Assembly (NCBI RefSeq): GCF_041260155.1 | Contig: NC_091933.1 | Location: forward strand, 6,361,501-6,425,500 | Direction: 5' to 3' | DNA from: Ptychodera flava | Lineage: Eukaryota > Hemichordata > Enteropneusta > Ptychoderidae | DNA length: 64,000 bases | Position numbers and translations under genes: made by a program | Part shown: piece by piece, positions 7,101 to 60,815 of the stretch | Layout of the letters: each line of letters begins with the position of its first letter | Numbering within the stretch: position 1 is the first letter of the stretch | Notes under the pieces: generated by a model | The model's input: only the letters and a program-made list of their open reading frames with translations | Database searches by the model: none | Told to the model about the DNA's origin: nothing

Positions 7101-8930
7101 ACTGCTCTATCAAAACACTGATCCATTTCCTAGGGTCCTCTAATGCGTGATTGACGTTAATTTTTGTAATAAAAATATGTACAATTGGATGCAGATGTTG
7201 GACATTGGAGATTGGAATAGCGGAATCAACATTAGCGTGGTGATTTATTAATACGGCACGTGATAATAGAAATAATCCGCTATGTGTGTCGACGAGATCG
7301 AATCCACAAAATTAATACTTCTTTATTCATCACTCATCTAAATCATTCAAAATTTAATAGTTTTAATGGAGATGAATTTAACATAATATCATTATAAATG
7401 TTCTATTTACCGATGAGAGTCTCTCCTCGAGCAGCGAAGGAAAAGCGGGACTATTTTTATCACATATTTTCTACTGATAAGTGTTCGTGGTGGATATTCT
7501 ATTCAGCCGGTGATCGTCATGATATGACGTCACATAATGTGTGATATCAGCCAGGAATATAATTGACATGTAAGAACGACGTACACTGAACATAAAGACA
7601 ATAGCAATAGCAAAATTGTACCGATATAAAACCGCATCGGTGTGAAAGATCCAATACATATTTTAAAAGTGCCATTTATTTGTCATTTACATTCGCATTT
7701 CACTGGTGGCACACGACTTGCTGTCTTCCTGTAAACAAGTTATGCTATTTTTGTATAATTGTCTTTTGTCCTATTTTGAGGTTGTACGTATTTGAGGACG
7801 CAGAAATAGTGGTATGTTTACTGTTTGATGAGTTTTACGATCATCAGGCCGACTGAAAAATGGTTGTTAACCGTTACTGTGTATTTTAGATTCGTGTTAC
7901 CCCTAATATATAATTTAATTGGTTTACTTGTTTGTGTCAAGGTGAAAAGGCATGCTACTGTTCACAGCAGACCTAAATGAATTGTTCCTTATTATTTCAT
8001 ACTAAAAGTGAAAATACCCAACATTGCATGTGCCGTCGGGTCACAGTACAGAGAGTCATTTTTCTTCTTTCTGTGGGCATTTCAACCTCCAAATGCTGTA
8101 TAACACCATGCCCATTCTTTCTACGCACGCACAGGTAATACCTATTACACGTTGGCGGATCAAGTTCTGTTATTCCTGTTCCGCTACTTCAAACTACAAC
8201 CAAGATTTAATCAGTGGAAATCTAGGACGTTCAAAAATTACCTTCTTTTCGGCTTGGCTTCCAGGTCCACTTGTGAGATGAATATCCCGGTTCTGAGGTC
8301 AACTCCTCCGCGTATGGAAAATCCTAAACTGACGCCGTTTTTATGTTCTAGTTTTACTTTCTTGATGTTAATATCCCTTGCCGACACGGCATTAGCCGAG
8401 TCAGCGCCTTCATTCTCCGATGACCGGGTCGCAGACGAGAGTGTTTCCAGGCTCTGATGGGAGCTCTTGGTCCGTTTTCTCTCCTTCTTTTCTTTCTTCT
8501 TACTTTCCTTGTCGTCTTTCTTAGGGGTTCTTTTTCCTTTCTTCTCGGAGCGGGAGGGACTTTTTCCGAGCAGAGAAATGTTTACACCTTCCCCCTGCTT
8601 TGTTGGAGTTCTCGCGTTTGATGTGTCGAGAGTCTGCGAGGTTTCCTCGACCAGGTCGTGCAGGACCCGCGCGCCGTGGATGCCGAAGTGGAGACTGCAT
8701 AGCTGTTGAAAGTCTGATTTCAAATGATCTGGAATGGCCAAGTAGAGCTCCCTCAACAGGGAAAGCTTCTCGGGACTGTTGAGTATGATCTGCAGCTCTC
8801 TGCAAAACGTTAACACTGAGTGGTCCTCACGGAACTTACCCATTGCAACTTTCATCATTTCGCATTCTCGCTGGGTAAGCAAGGCTTGTGCCCTCGTCTG
8901 CAGTCTGTTTCCCCTGAATTCTAACGACAT
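3082..8930 (-). CDS. Harmonin/whirlin-type scaffold protein (HHD, PDZ1, PDZ2)
   Basis: Coding exons read on the minus strand: 8930-8242, 6003-5735, 5503-5407, 5054-4961, 4523-4413, 4070-3082 (stop TGA at 3084-3082). Exons 2 to 6 join in phase at GT-AG sites. The start ATG at 8930 opens a helical harmonin-homology-like domain (about residues 9-83, with SPEKLSLLRELYLAIPDHL), then a Lys-rich linker (about 110-165). PDZ1 follows with carboxylate loop SLGFSIRGG and GLKAGERILKVND. PDZ2 has WLGCSIRGG, RAGLKRGQRISKVND and LTHLQIVNLVTASN. The remaining ~365 residues are polar and apparently disordered, ending DWRLW; no third PDZ or second HHD was seen. Such proteins (harmonin, whirlin, PDZD7) organise tip-link and ankle-link complexes in hair-cell stereocilia and microvilli. 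Oddity: exon 1 ends with two bases of a codon but the next exon starts in phase 0, so a small exon in the 2.2-kb first intron is probably missing. The orthologue within the group is not resolved. Confidence 0.8.
4098..4191. repeat. (ATC)n microsatellite in an intron of the PDZ gene
   Basis: A nearly pure ATC run just upstream of the last coding exon. It reads as poly-Met on the minus strand, but the acceptor TTTTGTCAG ending at 4071 places it in the intron, so the Met run is not part of the protein. Confidence 0.9.
6004..8241 (-). other. Large first intron of the PDZ gene
   Basis: A 2.2-kb intron splitting PDZ1. The flanking exon phases disagree by one base, so a microexon is expected here, but I could not find one convincingly. 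No repeat or RNA gene recognised. Confidence 0.5.
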
Positions 8931-11900
8931 TTCGGTACCCGCTCGATCTCATAGAAAGGAATGAAATCTTGAAACCGAAAACAAATGTAGCGAGATTGGT
9001 AATGTACTCAGATGTTATATCCAATGCGAAAGTGATGCGGGCGTTATTGCATTCTGGTTTCCATGGCAACAGCGTTGCTGCGATTACTGTAGGGGCCTTG
9101 GAGGAAGTCCAGAGTCGCTTACAAGGAGACTCTGCAGACTTAAATATCTACAAAAGCAGCGGGCATCGTGTCTGAACACGATTCTGCTAATGCAGCTATG
9201 TCTTGATCCATTGAAGTGCACAAGTCCCCCGCAACGCTTTCTTTTGACAGGTACACGGCTTGGAGGTCACTTAAAACACACTTGAGTTCTTGGGTTCATA
9301 GGTCGTGGTCCATTCACTGTGTTTTTTCACTTTCTAAAAAGGCTAGTCACCCTGTGAAATGAACCAAACAAAGTTAAGGCTTAGGATAATATTACATGTC
9401 ATTGAAACACATTGGATCACGTAGCAGTAATAATATGCCATGGTAATAACGCTACAAACATCTGTCAACAGTACCGAAGTAGGGTGATTTAATGTTTTAT
9501 GCGATTTCTGCACAATGATTGCAAATCTAAAGGAGGCTAATTCCTTATCAAGCCGTCCATGATACATGTCATATTTAACTCAAGCCGCCTAGCTACGTAA
9601 AACTGCAAAAAACAAACAAACAAAAACCAACAAAATTTATTCCTGAGTTGTGAACAGTGGTACACTCACATGGACTATTAATCTGAGCTTGATTTCACAT
9701 AGTTTTGAAGAATACTCCACACATAATACACCCTGTGCCGTGACTGACGCAAACAACGAAACAAAAAGCGACTACATGTATGTATGCAGAGTGTATACAA
9801 ATGCACTATGTGATGGTATTCAAGGTCTAGATATGACGTCATTCCTTTGGCGGTAGATTTGGCGAAGTATTTGTAGTATAGCTCTTTCTTGTCAGCAAAC
9901 GCCATACTATTAAATGAAGTATACTTTATGCGCATCATCGGTTCTCGTTCACTTGCAAGACCAGGTAATAATGCTAGTTTGTACCGTAAAACCTTGGTTT
10001 TTGGATAAAAAATGTGCTGCGATTACACTTGTTTTTTGTTTCAAGGTGGTTTTCCCTTGAAGGTTAACGATGCTGACTGTCATGCAAGCGATTGATTGCT
10101 TGCTGTTAAAGTATAACGAGTCTGTTTGCATATTTGATATTTTCATTGGACATATCTCTTATTGGCTTTGTCACGCTTCATTTAAATCCTACTGATAAGT
10201 TACATCGATGCCATTAAAATTCAAACGAAGCCTGTCAGATATTCATGTTTTTAAAAAAGTGATTAAATTTGATAATTAAGTTATCTTTCCGATGAGAGAA
10301 TCCCACATCCCCTTTCCAAACTTTTCAGACGACAACAACATCCTTCCTGTTGTAATTAAATTCTGTTGCGATACTGAAATTAAATCAATAATGACAATAC
10401 TTAGACATATGTCGTGTTTTCGATAAATTAATTTACGACTGTTCTACATTTGCTTCGTATTGATGTAGGTCTACACGAAATTCACCTTTGTTTCTTGTAC
10501 ATATTGTCATTCTGGCTGGTGAATGCAATTCCCCTTCATTCCTGCTATATTTCAATGACATAAGCTGCAGTTTTTTGGTGACCGGGGCACTAAAATACCC
10601 ATGCTTTGCTCAGTGATTATCCTGTAGTATTCGGACGGTGTAACGCAGAACAAAATCCTCTCTGATTAATTTCTATCACCATGACCATTGTCTCTGCCTC
10701 ATTAAATCATTCTGTCCACACGACAGAGTGTATTGTCTTCTGTATTCCATTCACAGAGTTGGCCGATACAGGGAAGCAAAATTATAATGAACGGTATTTT
10801 TATATTTTGATCACCGTTGTCATACGTTTATTTCAATTACCTCTTCACTTTCGAAATATTGCTGGAGCAATGTTAGTATTATCTTAATTGATCCAACATA
10901 AAAAGCGACACAAGATTTACTCTAGTATTGGACTGGTGATTCGGTACGATATTGAGAAAGCACAAATTTTGCCTATCGAAACAAGCTACCTCGCAAGCAG
11001 GGAACAATCCCTTTGGTATCTGAACACAAAACACGATGTTGTGTGAAATAACTAAAAAACACTATTAGACTTAGTTTAAACATATTCACATAAAGTGACA
11101 GTGTAATGCCCGTGTAACTTTCTCCCTCCTATTTAATTACATACCGCGAAAATTAACAACCTTCATAAATGTCAATTCAAGTGTGATAGGGATTTGATAA
11201 AGCTCACTTTTCCTAGACAGATTTCTACTTAGTACAACATGCACGTGAAGGGGACAGCCAATTTGAAGGTCAAATACTGATATTCCAATGCGTTGAACAA
11301 TACATTAAATATTTACATATTTCTCGAATAGTATTTGTAAGCATATGGTGGCTTTCAAATACAATGACTCTCTCACACTGGTATGTCATGTGGCGACGCA
11401 AAATTCAAGATTTATGGAAGCTTCGAAGTCACGTGACTCCAATATCGCACTAAATTATTTAAAATCGTGGCCAATCAATCGATTGCACCTGGGAAACGGT
11501 TTCCGCAAAGGTTTCCTCCATCACGTGACTCAGATCTCGTATTTCAACACTACTTATGTACAGGTCAATGCTAACAATTATGTGGCGCCTCAAACTCTGC
11601 ACGCAAAACATTTCACTTTAATTTTGTTTCTCTACTGGAAACTTCCTGAGCCTATGTATAACACTATTAATATCCGGGTGACTTCTTAATTGGATTTGTT
11701 CCCTTCATTAGTGAAGAAATAATTAAAACAACATAAGCTACGCCCGCGTGGCTAGGTCTTCTATCCTATCGGCAATGTCACTGCACGCTTTCCGTTGCTG
11801 ACGGTAGTGAAAATGGACGAAGGGAAATCTAACAAGGATATTAAGCATATTTATACCCTTATTTTCAATGTCACAATTATTTTCAGTGTAACAGACTTTC

Positions 11901-21672: not shown

Positions 21673-24600
21673 CTGTACGTTACTCTTTGACGTGTCGATT
21701 TCGAACATCGCGCTATATTTTCCTCTATGCGCCATAGTCTTTGGATGTTCCAAAAGCCCTTCGTCACCGATGCCGACGTACACATCTAGCGCCCTCATCG
21801 GCCACCCGAACCACCAAGAGTATTCACGATAGGTTACTTTCAGACAAGTAGCGCCCAACTCCTCGACGAGTGGCTTCTGTATGTGTTTCGTGCTTAGATC
21901 TGTGAAGAAGTTTAAGTTTATGCTAAGATGAGAAAATGATTATGGTAACATAAAAGTAAACAGATTCGTCAATATGACATCAAATCAATTGCAGCAACCA
22001 TTATCATTTAACAAGTAAATCACCAGGTCCACCCCCCCCCCCCCCCAAAAAAAAATCACACAGACAAACAAAATCGATAGTGCAATCTCGTCACCCGTCA
22101 AGATTGAACTAATATGAGGTGTATGTAAATATCTTAGAGAAAAGGCTAAACACATTCCGGCAGGAGAGCCTTTTAGGGTAAACATGGAAAATGTATTTCT
22201 TGATGTTTAGCAAAGAAATATTAAAATTATGATCGGCCGTCCTTTAAAGGTTGTGTGATAATTGGATGATAACACTGCATCCATTGCGTTCAGAGAGCAT
22301 ATAGTTTAGCGTTGTTTAGAGCAAATTTGCACTGTGGCGACGTCGACGTCAAACTACAGAGTATTATAGCCGAAGTGCAAGACGTGCTCCTGCAGGTGAC
22401 GCCTTGGAAAATTAAAAACGTTTACGCCTGACACTCATTCACCGGTCAGATTTTGATTTGAAATGTTTGCTTTTAAAAATCTGTTCTCAGTTTAACTTCC
22501 AATAACCTATTTTCAGCAATTTGCATCGTGTTTGGTGGAAGTTCAGATCATAATTTCGTCGTAGGATTTTAGCATGTCCAAACTTTCGTTTAAGAGAGTT
22601 GGTCTTTAAGGTCAAATGCAGGGAGTTCGTTTTCCATACGCCTGCTCCAATTGTCCATGTTCCCTAACTCTGCCAAATGCTGCGATCACTTTTTAAGTAA
22701 CAATCTTGGCATTAAAATACATAAGCGGTGGTTGACTAACGAACATCGGACACTGGAGTCTCCGTAGGATACGTTGAAAGAGGGGTTTCCACAAAATTGG
22801 AATCGGTTTTCCCTAACCTATTGAACTCCATTTGAACCGGTACAAGCTGGGGACATTGTTTACAAACATTTCGCGTTACAGCGCCGCCTTGTTGAAACAT
22901 GGAATCTTTGACAGACAGCTGTACGTATTACCGTAATATGCAAATCCACCAAACGTGTAATACTGACCAAACATGGAAGGCCTGATAAAATTCATGATGA
23001 TGTCATTGCTAGCCAGGTTGCAGCTGCTGATGTGCAGCGTGCTCGGGAGGCTATCTCTGATTGGGCAATTATCACTATTTACAGCAACTTAGGGAGTCTA
23101 TTTGTATTATTCAATTATAACGGTAAGATTCAGCCATCCCATTGGGTATTAGCTTCTGAGACGCTGCGCATCAGCCCGGTTGCAGGCTCAGGGTCTGCTG
23201 ACATTGAAGAGGAGGTGGTTTTCACGCACAAAGCTGGTATAGGCATTGCAGTGATCACCGCTGATGTACATGTGACTTGTAAGACCCGTATTATGGATTC
23301 CCCGCACCTTGGACTTGATCTCCAGTAAAACTAAATCCACAATTTAAAGACGTGACCATGCTGTCGCTGGTAATTGAAATGTCGAATAATTTCTATGGTA
23401 GCAAGTGTCCAGGAAACGTTTCAATAATTACAAAAAGCCAGGCGTGTACACTTACATTTTTTGCCAGGACCCGTCGGCTTCACCTCAAACTCTCCAGGCC
23501 CAATGACTTTGTATGCTATGTCAGTCTCGAACGAAAACCATGCTGCAACGTGTTTGCAGTAAAGCCGTCCATCTTTGATGTAAGTTCCCTGTCGTGACAA
23601 GTAATCTATGGTTTCTTTCCGGAGAGAGTTAAATCGTTCGCAATCTTCCGTCACCGATTTCTTTAGCGCTCTGAAAAGATTGAGCTCCTTCTCGAAGCCA
23701 TCGCCGTAGTCGTGGATCTTCCTCCACAAAGTCCGGTTGAACCTTTCGTACAATCTGACGTCGGCGCTGTTCCATCGGTAGATTTTGGCTCGGGAGTCCG
23801 ACGTCAGAGTTTCGTGTTTGTCGCTTACCCTCCTGGCAAGGTAGAGAATGTCTTCCATTTTCCAACAGAGAAGCCTCTTTAGTAGAATCAACGACTCGTC
23901 GTAATACTCGTTGACTATGACCAGGTCGATTTCCCTCTCCATTTGATCGATGTAGCGGTCGACGACATCCTTCTTGTCGTGGTAGACATGATGTAAACCA
24001 AAGTGCCATGTCTGACTGTTTCTAGTGATGGCCCAAGCCAGCGAGCCGCTGGGCATTCGCTGTCGGTAATGGCCCGGGTCCGACAGAAACATTCCGAAGT
24101 CGCCATTTTTATCGTTCATGTACTTTTTCGAAATGTCGAAAAAGTTGAAGACCGAGCGGAAATTACTCGCAGGGTCCCGCACAATTGACACAAACATTGT
24201 TTCGATTGACTTCGGGTGACTTTCGATGGAACCCCTGTTGACTTGAAGCATATTCACCTGGTTTGGCAGCAAAACGCCGTTGCGTTTATGGATGCTCATA
24301 GTCTTTTTGTTGCCGGTGTCCTGCAAAGCGCTCGGGTGGTTAACACCGTCCAGGTGGAAGAAGTTCATAAGGCCGCTGTAAGCTTCAGAGTTGTGGAAGG
24401 CAATTTCTCTTTTCAGTGTGTATCCATACTTCCTGCCGGCCCTGTGTAACAACGTCACCAGGGTAGTGCTCCCAGTCTTCCGGTTGAAAAGGTACGCTAC
24501 GTCGTAGCTACCGAAACACGTTGAGTTTGACGACGTCTCCGATAACGCCCGTTTCAGACCCGGAAAACTGCTTCTTTGAAGAAAATATACGAAATATTAG

Positions 24601-45500: not shown

Positions 45501-47362
45501 GATGCCAGTCTTCAATTTGCCTCTGCCGCAGGGGATGCTGGGTATGTTAAGTTTCTACTTAATATCTGCCAACAGCATCACAGCAACTTGAAAGACAAGG
45601 TAAGATATCCTCTAGCCAGTCCTGTGACAATTCCCAATTAAATTGATCACTCTAAATAACATAACCGGTTCTTACAGCTGTACCAGTTATTAGCTGCATA
45701 CACAATACTGGCTTGCCCTTCCGACCATACTGTACTCCCAAACAGAATACTCAGACAAATCTCCCTATATTTTAATATACCAAAAAAATTCGGCGAAAAT
45801 GTAGCCAACAGATAATATCGAGGGAAAACTATAAAATGTGTGGTTAACCTGTATTGTCTTTAGTTTTTCTCTCGCATGTTTGTACACAGGTTTATTTGTT
45901 TATCTAAATTGTCATTCCCTAAGCATACTGCAATTACATTTCAAGATCCATACCTTGCAGTTTTTGAATGACAACAACTTACAGCCCACTTTCCATAACC
46001 TTACCACAGACAAATATAGACTGTCTATGTTTGTCTGTGACCTTACCAACACATTGAATAGTGGCACAACGAATCGTGCATAAGATTTATATTCAAGTTT
46101 CGTAAATCAAGTAGTTCCTAGGGCGAGAAATTCCGACTTTAATTCTTCCGAAATTTAATTTTAGATGTATGGCTATCTCAGCAATGGACTGTTCTAGAGC
46201 ATCTGCCATCGATTATTGATATATGAATTTGCATAATTTTGATCGCACGTTGTGATAGTAAACATTTCTAGAAAAGTAATGATGATGAATATATTGTGAT
46301 GCAGTATCTGAAAGTGCAATCTAGGAGATAAGTTCGGTTCTCATGTTCAATTCATTGTCACGTCACTTTCCTATTTAAAGTTCTTGGCTGTTGCTGATCT
46401 GATTTGCGAGTACTTTGGAAATCCACCGGTCAGTGCGGAGTCAGTGCCGGACAAAAGTGAACAACCTACATCGCCGGAAGTGGTCGAGGATCAACCAGAA
46501 AATGTTTCAGTGGCTGACGAAGAAGTCGTGAGTACTTTAAAATTGTTAAATTGTTATTTTTTGTCAGATTCTCGCTGTTCGCATACCATCTTATAGAATT
46601 ATGTAAATTTTAGAATATCGTATTCCGTCCATTATATTATTTTCAATTTATGTGAGTCAGGAAGTGACATAGAGAGTGTGGACATCGAGAACGTACAGCA
46701 GCGATTTCTTAAAGCGTGGGAGTATGTTTCCCTTCTTCCATAGGAAACCTCTGAAGACAAAGACGTGATACGTTTTGTAGCAGCTGGCGAACGGGCCGGG
46801 CTGAAGGATAGTGGACGTGTAGCGTACAGGATCGACTCCGAGTACGTAACGGCCGTCAACAAGGCAGTCTTCGTAACCGATAAACCTCTCGGGACGGGCA
46901 GGCCTTTCGAAATCAAGATCGACAAGATGGATACCGAAAGATTGAGGGAATCGCTTGAATTTGGTATGTAGTAAACTCGAAATGGCGAAACTTAGAACAA
47001 GCTCCCTCCCTCCCTCCATCAATCCATCCATCCATCCATCCATCCATCCATCCATCCATCCATGTGCACGCATGCATGCGCACGCATGCACACGCATGCG
47101 CATCTACCAAGCTACGTAGCTTCCTACATACATACATACATACATACATACATACATACATACATACATACATACATACAAACATATCGACTATTGATGT
47201 ACAATAAGTTTCCGTACATACATGCATGCATACATACATACATACATACATACATACATACATACATACATACATACATACATACATACATACATACATA
47301 CATACATACATACATACATACATACATACATACATACATACATACATACATACATACATACA

Positions 47363-47394
<32 letters not shown>

Positions 47395-49663
47395 CATACA
47401 TACACACATACATACATACATACATACAGACAGACAGACAGACGGACGGACAGACAGACAAAAATACAGACACACATACATACAGACATACAAAGTTAAC
47501 ATTAACTCTATGAGTTTCCATTTAACCCATGATAGGTGTCACTATGTACAAGGAGTTTCCTGATGACGTCGTATATCACGGCCAGGGCTATGGAGAAGGC
47601 TCTGGCTTTTGGTTTCTCAGGTAGGAATAAAAGAGTAGACCAGTGAAAATTTGATATCAAGCCCGAAGTGTGCGACTTGCATGATCATGTAATTTTAATG
47701 GCTGCTCAGAAGTGCTGTTAATGAAATTAAAGAGAGTGAGATTTTCAAGAACATTATTTCATCGTTTAGAGAATTTATACTGTAGGTCATAGCGAAAACC
47801 AATGAAAAGGTATATGTTGGTTGATACATTTTTATTGATGAAAAAAATGCTTCAATTGATAAAGACATGTGCACACAAAAATGTAATTTCGGGCTGACTT
47901 GATCAATTCCATTTGGTATTTTATAGTACCCAGATAAGTATTAATGTTAGTCAAGTCTTTCTCCTGTCGAGTTTATTTGTCCCACGACCAGTCTGACCAT
48001 ACAAGTGATTTAGTATTTGCTGGTCCGTTGCTACCGTTGGAATGGTGAAGGAATGTGGCGGTCCCTGAACGCATACAATTTAACTTTCTCACTGTCCATC
48101 CAATCATAAGCATTTGATCAAACAAATAACCCACTTGCAACAAAATCAGTGATACCAAGTTTGCTAGTCAGATATTCATCTTCTATAAATAAAAAGTTCA
48201 TGCTGTGATCACTTTCTAGGAATTCTGATTTCGTGAAGGATTTCACATTCACTGGAGGCCAGTACGGGTTTAATCTGGATAGGATATCTGAAGGTGATCG
48301 CATCGCAGTCATTCGACTTCCAAATAAAACCCTTCACTATTACTACAACGGTACAGACCAGGGCATCGCTTTCAGGAACATCCCAGAAGGTATACCGTTC
48401 AATTTATAAAAGTGTCAAGGGGTACCCTGAGGCATATTTTATTTATATTATAAGCAATTCTCCTTTTAATCCACCTAGGTTTCAATAACGTGTATGCAAC
48501 ATAAAATACGAGTCAACTATTACTTCAATCTTACTTTATGACAGGCGGTACCGAAAATTCAACATCATATGAGTGGTTTATGATGGCGACAAAACTGACT
48601 TCTCAGGACTATTTTCCAGTAGGTTTACGTATATATAAAGTGACCTAACGGTCAGAAGACCATTCTCATTTCTTTTATATCGGCGTTAGCACAAGGCTTT
48701 TCAAAAAATCGAGATATTTATGTCAACAAACGAATGTACTGAAAATGTTTAATCAATATTGTGAACTTGGAGTGAAGGCCCTCCATTTGTTAGTCTTTTT
48801 AAATCTTTGATCAACTCCTGCCACAGGTGTGTACCCTCTGGTCGCTGTTACCGGCAAATGTCTGCAAGTCTCTGTCGTCGACAAGCCATCCAAAATTGAT
48901 CTGCCTGCTGAAATGTCAGAAGACACAGAAACAGAATACTTAGAACCTGTCGGTAAATGATTTTCCATGCATTTCCATCACCTACGTCACTAACATATGT
49001 AACATAACTCGCCCGATCACATATCTAATTCGCTAGGATACATCACGCTGTACTTAGTGAACCGGGCACCTGAAGGCAAATTGCAAACACACAAACAGGC
49101 AGGCCAGCAAAAGATTGGACAAACGAAGCTTTACCTAATGAAATTAAGCAAATAGCTGAAAAATATATATTAAGTTGATTAACTGACGCTCACAAAAGTG
49201 GAGGAAAGGATTATGTAAAATAATGTTAGCATTACAAATAGAAACTTGGCTATTCAGTGTACCTCGACAAACATCCTAAAGATGGCAAACGATATATTTG
49301 GAAAATACGAACCCGAAGCGGTTATGACGATTTGGAACAACGTAGAGTTCAACGTCATTCTGATTGCTTTTTGTAGAAAGCTTCAAGTTTACTACGGGGC
49401 TGAAGGGTACAGAAGATTTTGGACGTCTGAGATCACCATGGGGGAAAGATTTCCTGGACGAGTCGCGGCACCCGGACGAAACCCGTCTCCTTGACTCACA
49501 CATTGATCGTGATGGTATGTAGATTTTTAGTGATGGTGTCGTGATGTTGAGGGTACAGACGTATTCAACTTTTGCTGCTTTTACAGACATGTTAATTGTC
49601 AGAGTGGAATGTATTGATGACGAGACGGTTGAGGTGGCTTACTTCAGAACGCCCTTCAACTAA
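42527..49663 (+). CDS. ARM-like helical protein with C-terminal Neuralized homology repeat
   Basis: Thirteen exons, all in phase at GT-AG sites: 42527-42733, 42980-43193, 43595-43719, 44045-44213, 44842-45027, 45385-45599, 46381-46527, 46744-46963, 47536-47620, 48220-48389, 48827-48952, 49377-49514, 49587-49663. They give 692 residues. The ATG at 42527 has an in-frame stop two codons upstream. Residues 1 to about 400 look all-helical and armadillo-like (GAIQNIAGWLQKCLQ, ELVEGLDNLSSHPQNKEN, VVPILFELLEKSEK). An acidic linker (about 388-425) leads to a Neuralized homology repeat, about 430-615: GRPFEIKIDKMDTERLRESL, LEFGVTMYKEFPDDV, FNLDRISEGDRIAVIRLPNK, YYYNGTDQGIAFRNIPEG, YPLVAVTGKCLQVSVVD. 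NHR domains bind protein partners in Neuralized ubiquitin ligases; no RING finger is present, so I infer an adaptor. A 77-residue tail ends EVAYFRTPFN. The family is not one I can name. Confidence 0.85.
46992..47490 (+). repeat. Long tetranucleotide array, (CATC)n, (CATA)n, (CAGA)n
   Basis: Nearly 500 bases of CCTC, CATC, CATA and CAGA runs with short breaks, wholly within the intron between exons 8 and 9 of the ARM-like/NHR gene. The long His/Tyr or Cys/Met/Tyr/Val open frames here are artefacts of the repeat. Confidence 0.95.
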
Positions 49664-51316: not shown

Positions 51317-53608
51317 ATGTTTGCTGTTCCGTTTGCTTTCTCTCAAGGGAGGCGAGTCCTTGATCTTCAATCTAAACAATCAGAGACGATGGAGGGCAAG
51401 ATTGCTGCAGAAAAACGCTTCACACAAGGACGCGCAAGTGAGGCGGACTTACTGATGCAGATGAGGGAAGCAATCGGTTTTGCCTCGTTGCTAAGCAACC
51501 CTATGATGAGGATCGACCCCATATCTAAAGAAGCAGTCGTAGCGATACAGAATTACGTCAGCATGCATGGTCTCACTTTGAGTGCATTTGAAACCAGCAA
51601 TGTCGTTCCGAAGGAACCGAATAAGCTGACTGGTCGGTTGGCTGATGTATTCACGTTTGTTCTGAAACCGTGCTTTGATAATCTGAACCGTGTTGACGGG
51701 TATGTGTGGACAGGAAGTACCAGCGAGGGGTTCGCCATCACAGACCACAGTGCACGCTCTGAGCGGTACTTGAACGACGAGATGGATTTGATGATACCTG
51801 TTGCCATGGTTACTGAAGCTTTGCATGGCACGCTTGACGAGAAAGTAACTGATGACGTGAGCAAGGTAGTCGCTGGACTCAGCGGTAATGATGGCGATGG
51901 AGGCAGAGGTGATCTCGAACATCAAAACACGTGTTCAGAATTGCTTGTCAGCGAGCTTGAACGAGTTGGTCTTTCTGAAGGCACGAAAGACGATCCGCCG
52001 CTACAGTGGGTCAAAACTTCCCTGCCAGGCTACGTACACATTCAGATACGAAAAACCAAGGAGCAAAACTTTACTGAAAAATTCATCAATGGTCTGTGTA
52101 TCACCATCACGCCTGACGGAGACACTGAGAATAAAATTTACTATCTCTCCAGATCAAAACTACTGAAGGTCCAGGAAGATTACGTACGTTCACGTATACC
52201 AGCTGTTCAAGTAGAAATTGACACAAACTACGAGCAACATGGAGGATTTCGCGGTAGAGTAGAACTCTTACAACAAGGACCAGTTCAAACCTTGAGTGTC
52301 TTCTATACGACAAAATCATTACAGGGTATGATAGCGATTTGTTTATTTCGTTTTTCAGACTACCTTGTTTGGAATAAATCATTTTAATTTTCTTGGTCAC
52401 TATGGGTTTTGATATCAATGAGAACGTGATTTAAAACTGAACAATGAGGCCTCGATTATTACTTATCTCAGTTTTTTTGTTGGTCTAATGTAAGATTTAA
52501 AGCTGTAGCCTTAATGTTTGACCATAATAGAATGCTTTTATACTGTATTGAGCACTGTTCTCTCTGTACGATAATAGGGTACCATGAATACAAGAAAGTT
52601 AACATACATATGAAATAAATGTAATGATTTGCCTGTATCAAGACTTTGAAATAGCCAATTTTATTGTTCTATTATTTTCAGCGGGCTTAAGTTCAACAAC
52701 AGCAGAGTTTGAACAAACTGTTGATGGTGCCCTGGCCCTGGTCTGCAAAGAATGGCCGTCCATATCTATGAAGTGGGAAACACGTGATCGCAAATGGCCA
52801 ACCGATGATGTCGTCCGCACAATTATGGAGGCAGGCTGCCACATTGTTCCGAAATCATATCCAGGGGAAGGCGGTGATGATTGTCTGCAGTGGAGACTCT
52901 CTTTCTCCCTGGCCGAAAGAACTCTGGCTCACACGTTCACAGAGAAACAGAGGATGTTCTACCTCGTTGTGAAGAAGCTATGGCGGACTTTCCTGAAGGT
53001 AGCATTACAAGTTTATTTTGTATGCAACTTCAATGGAAAACTTGTAACACAAAATGTTCCATTTAACGTAGGCTTTCAGCGTTGAACAACGAAGGCAAAG
53101 AAAAGTCTCAAAAGTAAATGATTGTTAATGGTTTTAATATTGATAGTTATTACCAAGCAAAATGTCTAGTTGTGTCACTTGGGATTAAATCATTCTACCG
53201 TGGGAGGTAATGATTTTGTCTCATTGTATAAAGCGATATCGTTAAACGCAACTTATGCAAGTTGTAGTTCAAGTACTTCGACCATGTGTTCTCTTCCAGG
53301 AACCAAAGGTACTCTCCTCTTACCACATGAAGACGACCATGTTCTGGGTTAGCGAACGAACACCCACTGACCAATGGGAGGAGTCCAACCTTGGAGACCG
53401 ATACATGGATTATTTCGATCGACTGATACGGTTTTTGGAGCAAGGAAACGTGCCGAATTTCTTCCTGCCTGAAAACAATATGCTGAGTCACATTTCGAAG
53501 AGCGAGATTGAAGAATCGCTCAAGAAAGTCAGAGATGTCCGCAGAAAGCCGCTGTTTTACATGAAAGATCTGTGTGTACCTACAAGCATGTTTAATGTGC
53601 GACATTAG
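51317..53608 (+). CDS. Mab-21/cGAS-like nucleotidyltransferase (cGLR candidate)
   Basis: Exons 51317-52325, 52682-52998 and 53300-53608 join in phase to give 544 residues. The nucleotidyltransferase core shows WTGSTSEGF (G133, S134), then DEMDLMIPV with acidic residues E155 and D157, then TVDGALAL with D351. These match cGAS GS, E225, D227 and D319, so the metal-binding triad looks complete. The helical half has the Mab-21 signatures EAGCHIVPKS, WRLSFSLAERTLAH, EKQRMFYLVVKKLWR, SYHMKTTMFWVSE and GNVPNFFLPENNML. In animals this family makes cyclic or linear nucleotide second messengers after sensing nucleic acid and signals through STING, while some members are inactive developmental proteins. 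The intact triad favours an enzyme; the trigger and product cannot be read. M1 may not be the real start: a pyrimidine-rich TGCTTTCTCTCAAG precedes codon 11 and could be an acceptor, and M25 is an alternative. The gene follows the ARM-like/NHR gene on the same strand. Confidence 0.85.
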
Positions 53609-54304: not shown

Positions 54305-55499
54305 CTATGATGTACAAGAACATCATGGCCATATTTTTTTAAAACAACTCTCAAGATGGGTGGGGCAAATTGAAGTGAACAAACAAAAAATACATCATTA
54401 TTTAGCAAACTAACATCTCAACCTACTGTCCCGCGCCCTTGTTGCTCTTTTGTTTTCAATGTTTTCACATTTTTCACACCGACTAGTGTGCCCTCTTGTT
54501 TACATCCTGTCCATTCACCTAAAGAGCCCGTTCTCAAGTAATTTCTCATACTCCTATAGAGAACCTCACTATATACAGTGCTCTTTCCTGAACCGTCTGA
54601 GCTGGGTTAGTCCACCTTTTCCCGTTTTCTACATTTTATGTATCCATTTACAGTATTGATTTTCCAGTCAATTATCAATCAGTCTTGTGTTTGCTTTCTC
54701 TATCAATCTATTTTACTTTTTTCATACAAAGTCTTTTTACCGCTGAGTTGTTCCACTCCTTGATTTGTATGCCTCTGTGCTTATTCACCAACGGGACGTC
54801 TGCGTTTCTGTATTTTAATTCATTACTTTTAACTGTATTAGATAATATTATTCACTGTTTCTTGGTTTTACTCATTTTTGTAGTTTTTGCGATTGCATAT
54901 GGTTTTATGTGGGGCATTTAGTGTAGAGATATAGGTCGCCGATAATTACCAGTGACGCTGAAAGAAACTCACAGTTTTTAATCAACACAATTATAGGTTA
55001 ACTACATTTCAACCAATGACATTACAGAGAAGCACGCTGCATTAATGTGCGTGGTCATTAAAGGGATAGACAAAGCATGATAGGAAATCTGGTACATGTA
55101 GTAATCAGAATTTACCTTCAGAATTATAACAAAGTAATAGTCGCGCCAGCGGCTTACTGACTAAGCATGCGCTTATTCATAATATACTATGCGAGTAACC
55201 GGAAGTGTACCCTTCTTTCACGGGCGCCGCCATGTTTTTTTTTTTTGAGTACTCGTAAATAAACAAAAACGAAACAAATTACTATTATTTAACATGCCTT
55301 TTATAAAATATACCTCTTTTATTAGCCAGTAAACGTTATTATGCACATTGTCGCTGATACAAAATATCGTTAATATATATAAAGCCCGGGGGGGTAACTC
55401 CATAGCTAATAGTACGGGGGGGCTCCGCACGAACATGGAAACCCAAACTGTTGTGATACCAGTTTTGAGCAAAAAAACCTACCCTTTCTGATACCTAGT

Positions 55500-55618
55500 T
55501 GTGGAAACGCAGCTATCTCTTGGCGGGGTAGCGTGAGTTGCTATGTGAGTGGCGGGGTTGACCTTTGACCCGCATAGCAACTCACGCCACCCCGCCAACA
55601 GATAGCTGCGTTTCCACA
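55500..55618. mobile_element. 119-bp hairpin MITE nested in the left arm
   Basis: TGTGGAAACGCAGCTATCT at the left and AGATAGCTGCGTTTCCACA at the right continue through TGGCGGGGT and AGCAACTCACG blocks to a near-complete palindrome. The right arm of the host transposon lacks it, so it was gained after the arms formed or lost from one arm. Confidence 0.65.
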
Positions 55619-55648
55619 GCTATCTGATACGGTGGACGAAAACGACAA

Positions 55649-55750
55649 TCGCCGCGCTGTGTTAAAAAAATGACCGCGCTGTGTTAAAAAAAGCGCTGCG
55701 CTGTGTTAAAAGCGCTGCGCTGTGTTAGAAAAATGTCCGCGCTCTGTAAA
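55649..55750 (-). repeat. Subterminal array, left arm
   Basis: Five to six copies of a roughly 20-bp unit built on CCGCGCTGTGTTAAAAAAA, the reverse complement of the right-arm array. Confidence 0.85.
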
Positions 55751-57852
55751 TATATGTATTGTACTTCAGAGGTAAAAGGGGGAGGAACTTTTTCCATTCA
55801 AAAACTTCTACTGAAAGCGGCAGTCTTAAATCCCTGGTTGTTGCATTGGTGGTTGTTGACATTGTCTGATTATGTGAATGTCGTGCATTCTCCTTTGCAT
55901 TCATCAATTTGCTCAGAGATAAAGTTGATAAAAAACCTGCATATAAAACAGCAAATTTCTTGAGACGCGAGGAAACCAAAGTGCTAACTGCAAGCAATCC
56001 GAAGTGATTTTTCTGCAAATTGTTAAGGCTGAGCTATTCTCAAATCAACACACTGTGTGACATTGACCTGCATGTTGAAGCATCTACACATGAACATCTC
56101 ACTTGTGAAACTCGCGCAAAATCTCCACTGGCCAAGCATGCCAGCAATTTTAAAAAATCACTGGCCCTAAACCGCTCTCAGGGGGCCTAGAACATTTTAT
56201 TAAAAAAATAGAAAACACACCACTTCAACATCCTAACATCAAACTTTTTTGTGCCTTTTAAGTTATTGAAAGGAAAGCAAATGATGATGAAAAGTTTGGG
56301 CAACTGATCTCAGTGCCAAAAACATATGAAATCAGTGAAAGGTTAAACACAAACACATAAACGTTTGTATTTCTTAAAACAGCTTTCACAACAAATATTT
56401 CTAACATTGAGAAAATGAGCACAAGCTCGGCTTGAATTTGAAATATGTCCCAATATGAAAAAGGTAAGCGTCCAGAACTCCGATCAGGGATGGATAATGT
56501 TTGGCACTAAACACAGGATCACACGCAAATCCAGTCACAATAGTTGACTCTTTCAAAAATGATTCTGGCTTCTCTCCTCTTTGAGGGAAGATGACTATCA
56601 TCAAATCCAAGAAAGGGAATACAAAAAATATGGGCAAGTGATGAAGAGAAAAATACTGAAGTGTCGAAACTCGCGTTAAAAGATGAATCACAAAAATTTA
56701 ATCTTTACAGGCGACCAAGGCAAATGGCCATCAAGTTCAAATTACAATGAAGGTGCAATTTTGCACATTGTTTAAATATCGGACATTTACTTTCTAGTTT
56801 CGAAGTTTAGCAGTTTAAACACTGTCGATTCACCGGTGTCTCGCAATGTATTCCACACGAAATAAATGCAATGATCCTTTTATTCACCATATCGTAATAT
56901 TAAACAAACTTGGTAGAGCCGATGTGTGGAGTTGCCCTCATTTTTCCTTATATCCAACTCTTATTTTTATATTACGATACCATACTTGTCAGATTGCGGG
57001 TAAATATTTGATGTAAATCTGGGATTTCACTATACCTTACAGATCTGGCCTGCTGTCTGGCCGAGTCCGATTTCCGTAGTCCGACTCTAACTTAAATTAT
57101 ACGAGCCTGCACGATTTGTCTAAAACTGTGGGTAAATATCCTATATTGGCGATTTCACCAACTCACATATAATATATGACCAAACAATTCTAATGTCGAT
57201 ATTGTGTTGTCTAGTAGCTAAATGTCCGATGTCATATAAAAGTGCAATGTTGCGGTGTCCTGGAAATCCATTTTACCTCGACATATGCTAAACAACTCTT
57301 TTATGGCCACAAGGAGGTCACGAACCGAAAGCAAATGGGGAGCGTATTGAATAGCCACTACTCTCGCGAGAAAAGGTGGGGTAAGGTCTTTCGCCTGGAT
57401 GCAGTACCGATCAGTCTGTTCACTTTTTATTTGCGAATTTCACGTTTTGCAAACCTCTTGAAAGAATAAATTTCGTATCGCTGAATAATTAGGACACCCT
57501 GGTCTGTTACAGCCCAAACTTTGGTAAAGAATATCTGACATACCGTTACAATAAGGAAGAGTATGAACGAATACCATCTCATTTTAAAGAGAGGTAGAAT
57601 ATATCGCGTCTCAAGAAATTTGCTGTTTCATATGAACTTGTTAAAGGTGCAGATTTTTTATCAACTTTATCTCTGAGCAAATTGAAGAATGCAAAAGAGA
57701 ATGCACAACATTCACATAATCAGACAATGTCAACTACCACAATGCAACAACCAGGGATTTAAGACTGCCCCTTTTAGTGGAAGTTTTGAATGGAAAAAGT
57801 CCCTCCCCCTTCTTCCTGAAGTACAATACATATGTTTATAGAGATTTTTCTA

Positions 57853-58013
57853 ACACAGCGCGGCGATTTTTACACAGCGCGGACATTTTTTTAACACAGC
57901 GCGGCGATTTTAACACAGCGCGGCGCTGATTTTTAACACAGCGCGGACATTTTTTTAACAGAGCGCGGCGCTTTTAACACAGCGCGGCGCTTTTTTAACA
58001 CAGCGCGGCGATT
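57853..58013 (+). repeat. Subterminal array, right arm
   Basis: Seven to eight copies of a unit TTAACACAGCGCGGCGATTT with C/G-type variants (GCGGACA, GCGGCGCT). Arrays of short motifs near the ends are where transposases of hAT-like elements commonly bind. Confidence 0.85.
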
Positions 58014-58344
58014 GTCGTTTTCGTCCACCGTAATCTGATACCATACAATACCATACGTATACAGATACGACTCACTCGCCTTGCGTACCAGGGGTACCAA
58101 CAGTCAAACCGACAGATCGGAAATATTGATGGTAGATCTGGGATGTAGATACATGGGTTTCCAGTGTTGACAGCATGATTTTTTAACAAATGTCAGTTTG
58201 TGTTTAAAACCGGACCCTTTCTCATACCAACACCTCGTGAAAAGTATACCCTTTCTGATACCAAACAGTGCAAAAAAACGACCCCTTTCGCGCGGACCCT
58301 CCCCGTATAGCCATCTATGGGAGTTATCCCCCCGGGATATAAAG

Positions 58345-59881: not shown

Positions 59882-60815
59882 GCATGACGGACACAGAACT
59901 TCAACAGCTCAGAGGGATATACTATGACCAAGAAATTGGTTTGGAAAGTATTGAAAGCCTGTATCGGCAATCGAAGATTGACTCAAAGTGACACGTCACA
60001 AGGTAAATGTAGACTGACATATACATTACACAGGCCTACTCGATGTAGTACAATCTGTTGTAAAGTTTTCGTAACAAAGATGGATTAATAGCAAGCACAC
60101 TTAGTAGAGTTGCAGACCTTCGCAAGAGACAACGGAGGAGTCAAATATCTACTAACATCGATTGACATCCCAAGTAAATGTGCCTGGGTCGTGCCTATCA
60201 AGTCAAAAACTGGAGACGACACTATCCAGGCATTAAATAGTATTCTGCAGTCCCGCCGCCCAGAAAAATTTCAGACAGACGAAGGGCACAAATTTACATA
60301 CATTCACATACGCAAAAGAACATTCGTTGATTTCATATGTACAGTCAGAGGAAGGCCACCTTCGCTGAAAAAAAAACAGTACAACAGCGCTGTACACCGT
60401 GCCATGAAATTGAATCCACAAGATATGATGCTCCCAAACGACCACCTCGCTTTTCAAACCCTCTACGGACACAAACTCGTGAGTTCAGCATAGGTGAAAC
60501 AGTGCGAATATGGACGTTCAAGGGCAAAAGGTACTTGCAAAACTGGACTGAAGAGATATTCGTGATCACCAGTATTGTCTAAGCAGTGTCGCCAGTACAT
60601 GCTGAAAGACTTGCAGGATGAAGAAATCTTATTTGTTCACGTTCTATGAAGATGAATACAAAGTGTGAAATCGGACCTGATGCAGGTTATCGAGTCGACA
60701 AAATACTTAAGACTGAGAAAGTGGGGAAATAGTAATATTACTTGATTAAACGGAAAGGTTATCCCGGTAGTGGTTTCAAGTCATGGGAACTTAAGCAAAT
60801 TGTCATAGCACCGGC
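59882..60815 (+). mobile_element. Polinton-type integrase fossil
   Basis: The remains start with MTDTELQQLRGIYYDQEIG, followed by the retroviral-type integrase core (QTFARDNGGVKYLLTSID, then CAWVVPIKSKTGDD and EKFQTDEGH). They end with a chromodomain-like tail (GYRVDKILKTEKV, then LIKRKGYPGSGFKSWE). This order is that of the integrases carried by Polinton/Maverick elements and their relatives. No other Polinton gene or terminal repeat was found nearby. The copy is broken in several places and looks old. Confidence 0.7.

Follow-up and report, generated by a model that had tools for sequence, protein, structure and literature searches.

A three-exon gene and its surroundings

The window, i.e., the whole stretch of 64,000 nucleotides of Ptychodera flava DNA that was analysed, carries on its forward strand a three-exon gene (Table 1) whose exons are joined in frame via GT-AG introns (donors GTATGA and GTAGCA, acceptors TTTCAG and TTCCAG) to give a protein of 544 amino acids followed by a stop codon. 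The GC content of the exons (0.45-0.50) differs from that of the introns (0.30-0.34). Exon 1 lies within a stop-to-stop open reading frame of 366 codons; random DNA of 64 kb and equal GC content is expected to contain 2.4e-7 of these over all six frames. M25, with A at -3 and G at +4, is an alternative possible start. The initial annotation had proposed a three-exon gene with G133-S134, E155, D157, and D351, and all of these residues were found exactly at those positions.

Table 1. Positions of the gene, its parts, and the residues discussed, counted from the first nucleotide of the window
Feature	Position	Strand	Remarks
Exon 1: N-terminal extension, candidate activation loop, acid pair, acidic insert	51317..52325	+	open frame, canonical donor
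Codons T132-G133-S134	51710..51718	+	correspond to human cGAS T211-G212-S213
Codons E155-M156-D157	51779..51787	+	acids correspond to human cGAS E225, D227
Acidic insert, residues 163-212	51803..51952	+	50 aa, pI 4.23, GC 0.50; gap in 6/6 aligned relatives
Intron 1	52326..52681	+	356 nt, GC 0.301
Exon 2	52682..52998	+	PF03281 3.1e-12 with exon 2 alone
Third acid D351, exon 2	52723-52725	+	pocket alignment
W-R-L-S-F-S block with R408/S410/S412/E415, exon 2	52894-52917	+	pocket alignment
K434, exon 2	52972-52974	+	pocket alignment
Intron 2	52999..53299	+	301 nt, GC 0.342
Exon 3: Mab-21 C-terminal helical domain, stop codon	53300..53608	+	PF20266 6.9e-19 with exon 3 alone
S449-Y450...K453, exon 3	53318-53332	+	pocket alignment

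An innate-immune gene cluster is not claimed for the window, because only a sulfotransferase exceeded the cut-off among ten selected open frames compared with Pfam; this is a 391-aa frame on the reverse strand (23424-24596) that matches galactose-3-O-sulfotransferase (PF06990, 1.8e-36). Another reverse-strand frame (8241-8948, 236 aa) has no Pfam match above the cut-off; it shows a weak similarity to harmonin in the PDB (residues 191-227, E 0.0067) and presumably resembles an exon of a harmonin/whirlin-type PDZ protein. Roughly 2 kb 3' of the gene lies a 2.4-kb element (55628-58032) that looks like a DNA transposon. It has long inverted termini, of which the outer 42 nt are 100% complementary, further arms that reach to about 55970/57604 and contain GC-rich GCGCTGTGTTAAAA repeats, and ATCTGA on both outer flanks, a possible 6-bp target duplication. 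The element is adjoined by a 55-nt inverted repeat (55496-55622), the arms of which are 91% complementary and 17 nt apart. A 133-aa forward-strand frame (60092-60490) matches the integrase core (PF00665, 3.2e-5) below the curated cut-off and is perhaps a transposon remnant, and long tetranucleotide arrays of TCCA and TACA are present at 47003-47492.

Superfamily membership and the nucleotide pocket

By its profile matches, the window protein is a member of the Mab-21/cGAS superfamily. Both Pfam families concerned, namely, Mab-21 (PF03281, 1.3e-13, 51.9 bits) and Mab-21_C (PF20266, 4.1e-18, 65.8 bits), exceed their curated cut-offs (24.1 in each case), in agreement with the Mab-21 signatures described in the initial annotation, and exon 2 alone aligns to positions 120-194 of PF03281. 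In the PDB, 51 distinct sequences were matched, the best being the cGAS-like receptor (cGLR) 8gjy (7.3e-19), MB21D2 (7.3e-18, with a C-lobe match of 67.5 bits), MAB21L1 (2.3e-10), and cGAS (from 1.6e-8), and the best-matching stretches all fall inside residues 347-531. A six-member profile scored 116.9 bits in hmmsearch over residues 348-520. No other Mab-21 segment rose above the hmmsearch inclusion threshold among the 1642 ORFs of the window. PADLOC and NCBIfam yielded nothing, even with E allowed up to 1, and Rfam gave nothing at the gathering score. A collection of viral contigs yielded no homologue, and none of 33 pattern matches in a non-eukaryotic collection of genome contigs was confirmed as one. 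Single-sequence AlphaFold2 models reached a mean pLDDT of 34.3 for the whole protein and 39.1 for residues 97-336.

The pocket was compared at 13 metal- and nucleotide-contact positions of cGAS in a MAFFT E-INS-i alignment of seven sequences. Two of these, S213 and S435 of human cGAS, are assumed by us to be contact positions. The roles of the other 11 are taken from the available text of PMC5699495 and PMC4897736, where E225, D227, and D319 are given as the catalytic acids of cGAS and Y436 and R376 as its base site (PMC5699495), while E383, K414, and K439 place the donor, and T211, R376, S378, and S380 read the acceptor guanine (PMC4897736). The window protein has the human cGAS residue at every one of the 13 (T132, S134, E155, D157, D351, R408, S410, S412, E415, K434, S449, Y450, and K453) vs 64 of the 279 other aligned positions (Fisher p 1.3e-8, a descriptive value, since the test assumes independent columns and the positions had been selected for their function). 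Across the same columns, the controls match human cGAS at 13/13 (mouse cGAS), 11/13 (8gjy and 8gjw, the latter two being animal cGLRs named 'cGAS-like receptor 1'), 7/13 (MB21D2), and 5/13 (MAB21L1). When the comparison is confined to the nine positions in exons 2 and 3, where the alignment is secure, the window protein and mouse cGAS retain 9/9, 8gjy and 8gjw 8/9 each, MB21D2 6/9, and MAB21L1 4/9.

Three other h[DE]h matches, E300, E316, and E345, were considered as the third acid and rejected, because the exon-2 alignment sets D351 at human D319. The complete catalytic set claimed in the initial annotation is well supported and extends beyond the three acids to the entire set of pocket positions. 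Its remark that catalytic residues have been lost among Mab-21 relatives likewise holds for MAB21L1 (5eog), which shares the fold family and the C-lobe donor residues E, K, Y, and K with the window protein, but has Q169 as the third acid and lacks GS and the guanine contacts. The triad is complete in 8gjy and 8gjw. As the guanine-reading set is retained in the window protein, a guanine-containing product is predicted.

Activation loop, acid spacing, and acidic insert

As given in the available text of Li et al. (preprint PMC9980059), cGLRs are recognised by h[QT]GS, followed after 8-20 residues by [DE]h[DE]h and after a further 50-90 residues by h[DE]h, with homology over the C-terminal helix bundle and the N-terminal NTase core, a predicted structure like that of cGAS, and production of a nucleotide second messenger upon stimulation by a ligand. 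The window protein has W131-T132-G133-S134, then 20 residues (the upper limit), then E-M-D-L, and it has homology over the C-terminal helix bundle. The third step deviates, with an X of 191 and V350-D351 followed by G352, and the strict published pattern has 0 matches in the window protein. Counted in the same way, X is 89 in human cGAS, 91 in mouse cGAS, 97 in 8gjw, 102 in 8gjy, and 114-116 in MB21D2; the printed bound is thus loose, since four of the five complete-triad relatives exceed it, and 191 is still well outside all of them. The window protein is classed as a Mab-21/cGAS-superfamily protein and as a strong candidate for a cGLR, short of a proven one.

The first two steps (h[QT]GS-X8..20-[DE]h[DE]h) occur once in the window protein and in none of the other ORFs of the window (1642 in six frames, at least 25 aa). 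When the exon-1 protein is shuffled, the motif arises in 596 of 200,000 cases, and a stricter form with the GSxxE glutamate in 107 of 300,000; relaxing GS to G[S/G] makes chance matches common (26,044/200,000, or 5,814/300,000 with GxxE). Exon 1 itself was not recovered by four sequence comparisons: phmmer against the PDB gave no match; hhalign against four relatives gave a probability of 0.1 for the segment (99.6 for the whole core, with the alignment starting only at D351); a six-member HMM did not recognise it, its score for residues 97-345 being equalled or exceeded by 226 of 1000 shuffles; and four exon 1 fragments gave only a sub-threshold YycH match in Pfam (best E 0.031). The assignment of GS and the E/D pair therefore rests on the motif, and the one profile that does match exon 1 includes the window protein itself. 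With MAFFT default and L-INS-i settings, the acid pair was aligned with cGAS and 8gjy and the GS was shifted; L-INS-i also misplaced the acid pair of MB21D2 itself, and E-INS-i aligned both motifs. A putative homology over the N-terminal NTase core finds some support in the motif and in the match of exon 2 to PF03281, although exon 1 by itself went unrecognised.

Between GS and E155, 20 residues were counted in the alignment, not about 16 as in the initial annotation. This gap is also 20 in MB21D2 (22 if its pair is D-M-D), in contrast to 11 in human and mouse cGAS, 8gjy, and 8gjw. The second and third acids, D157 and D351, are separated by 193 residues, vs 91 to 118 in the six relatives (human cGAS 91, mouse cGAS 93, MAB21L1 93, 8gjw 99, 8gjy 104, MB21D2 116-118). 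Within this interval, 65 residues face gaps in all six relatives, and 50 of these form one block, the acidic insert, which only the window protein possesses among the seven aligned sequences. The D/G-rich insert previously placed near residue 195 was found as a run at residues 190-199, although its extent was redefined, the run being part of this larger block.

That the insert is a missed intron is judged unlikely. Residues 165-232 (51809-52012), a region wider than the insert, have an in-frame mean codon log-odds of 0.267, above the maximum of 217 non-coding windows (-0.059); two other frames, one forward (0.123) and one reverse (0.173), also exceed this maximum, and of the six coding blocks that were left out, one (-0.091) falls under it. 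The insert region contains 23 GT-AG pairs (at least 60 nt apart, length divisible by three), and at least eight of these leave the frame open.

A candidate cyclic dinucleotide synthase and its alternatives

The reading preferred in this study, with a probability of roughly two in three, is that the gene product is a cGAS-like nucleotidyltransferase competent for catalysis, i.e., a cGLR, which would make a guanine-containing cyclic dinucleotide. By analogy with cGAS, we infer its activity, product, ligand class, and putative immune role as follows. A ligand may dock in the groove behind the spine helix, reordering the long GS loop (residues 133-154), upon which two metal ions would be coordinated by E155, D157, and D351. 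The donor NTP would stack on Y450 and be held by E415, K434, K453, and S134/S449, and the acceptor guanine would be read by T132, R408, S410, and S412. A guanine-containing cyclic dinucleotide of the cGAMP type would then be released and presumably sensed by STING.

The nature of the ligand is approached through the surface of the protein. The Zn-ribbon thumb of human cGAS, which we take to comprise H390, C396, C397, and C404 (span H390 to C405), has no counterpart, as the window protein shows F, a gap, a gap, and E in these columns, and for the lack of this ribbon it is not classed as cGAS. At K384, K407, and K411, which we assume to be the DNA-contact positions of human cGAS, the window protein has R416, R427, and L, respectively. 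Its pI is 5.79 as a whole and 6.25 for the core (residues 97-530) without the 50-residue insert. The C-lobe is neutral (7.16), as in MB21D2 (7.17), and unlike the basic C-lobe of human cGAS (9.00); the stretches compared in 8gjy and 8gjw, which have the shorter loop and no such insert, also have higher pI values (8.27 and 9.19). Overall identity to human and mouse cGAS is 24-26%.

These features bear on the alternative that survives best, namely, that the protein is an active nucleic-acid-sensing cGLR, as most characterised cGLRs are, with dsRNA as its likeliest ligand. In the available text of Li et al. (PMC9980059), a panel of 15 cGLRs includes seven that are specific for dsRNA and two for dsDNA, which speaks for this alternative, as do the two arginines at human K384 and K407. 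However, the same text places nucleic-acid-sensing cGLRs at a pI above 8.5 and proposes non-nucleic-acid ligands for acidic ones. By this rule the window protein is no obvious DNA or RNA sensor, and the leucine at the K411 position and the absent Zn ribbon argue in the same direction. DNA or RNA is thus the less probable ligand class, and a nucleic-acid sensor is considered rather unlikely.

An improbable alternative is that the protein serves as an immune or signalling partner of other proteins (e.g., a scaffold or kinase activator) and makes no nucleotide messenger. This alternative stays alive because of a precedent in shrimp, where three Mab21 proteins activate IKKepsilon and cGAMP was not detected, as far as the available text of PMC12928593 reports. 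The neutral C-lobe, the acidic insert, and the unusual acid spacing would suit such a role, but the retention of every donor, acceptor, and metal contact would be unexpected for a scaffold.

Relationships within the superfamily bear on a third and still more doubtful alternative, that of a developmental or housekeeping protein of the MB21D2 or MAB21 type with a nucleotide pocket and no turnover. The tree comprised seven sequences, and 7lt2 (Tribolium), pig cGAS, other cGAS entries, and the MiD49/51 chains were left out. The window protein pairs with MB21D2, with UFBoot values of 86 and 89 in the full alignment and 70 for the C-lobe. In AU tests, pairing with 8gjy was rejected in the full alignment (0.040), pairings with cGAS (0.050) and MAB21L1 (0.062) were borderline, and that with 8gjw was not rejected (0.117); none of the four alternative pairings was rejected with the C-lobe (0.055-0.179), so that seven of the eight values over both alignments are not below 0.05. 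The pairing is to be regarded as a lean rather than a placement, because both proteins have long branches. As for a position among inactive Mab-21 developmental proteins, which the initial annotation would have counted against an enzyme, the window protein does not group with the developmental MAB21L1 but stands beside the orphan MB21D2, with modest support from seven sequences. Human MB21D2 (7lt1) shares with it the 20-residue activation loop, the neutral C-lobe, and the lack of a Zn ribbon. In the available text of Slavik et al. (PMC8410604), hMB21D2 has a neutral surface, misaligned catalytic residues, and no detected activity, and is nonetheless called competent for synthesis. On the other side, MB21D2 has GG for GS and no acidic insert, and it departs from cGAS at 6 of the 13 contacts, and MAB21L1 at 8, vs none in the window protein. 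The window protein and MB21D2 are only 21% identical on shared columns; the former is therefore no obvious orthologue of the latter and is not classed as one.

It is very improbable that the gene model is wrong (exon 1 coming from another gene, or the insert being partly intron) and the triad an artefact of joining: exon 1 alone went unrecognised and frame-length GT-AG pairs do span the insert region, but the motif precedes D351 in the expected order, the frame is kept through two introns, the insert is exon-like in GC content, the codon log-odds there exceed those of all non-coding windows, and the triad would survive the loss of part of the insert.

Within the preferred reading of a competent cGLR, a more specific and rather improbable proposal is that of an active enzyme belonging to the MB21D2 branch, in which the long loop and neutral C-lobe of MB21D2 would be combined with a complete cGAS ATP/GTP pocket. 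Gating would fall to the acidic insert, peculiar to this protein and placed right behind the metal-binding strand, such that a non-nucleic-acid ligand would lead to a cGAMP-type messenger. If true, such an enzyme could help to work out what human MB21D2 does.

The gene is a further member of the large, already described cGLR family, with unusual features, rather than a new kind. Another cGLR with an intact triad is not surprising, because more than 3,000 animal cGLRs have been published, according to the available text of Li et al. (PMC9980059). The usefulness of the window protein lies in the combination of a cGAS-identical pocket with an MB21D2-like loop, an acidic insert, and no basic C-lobe, which predicts a guanine-containing cyclic dinucleotide made in response to a trigger other than DNA or RNA. 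If this is right, the protein would help to separate the roles of the conserved enzyme core and the variable sensing surface, and would give the human orphan MB21D2 a catalytically active counterpart for comparison.
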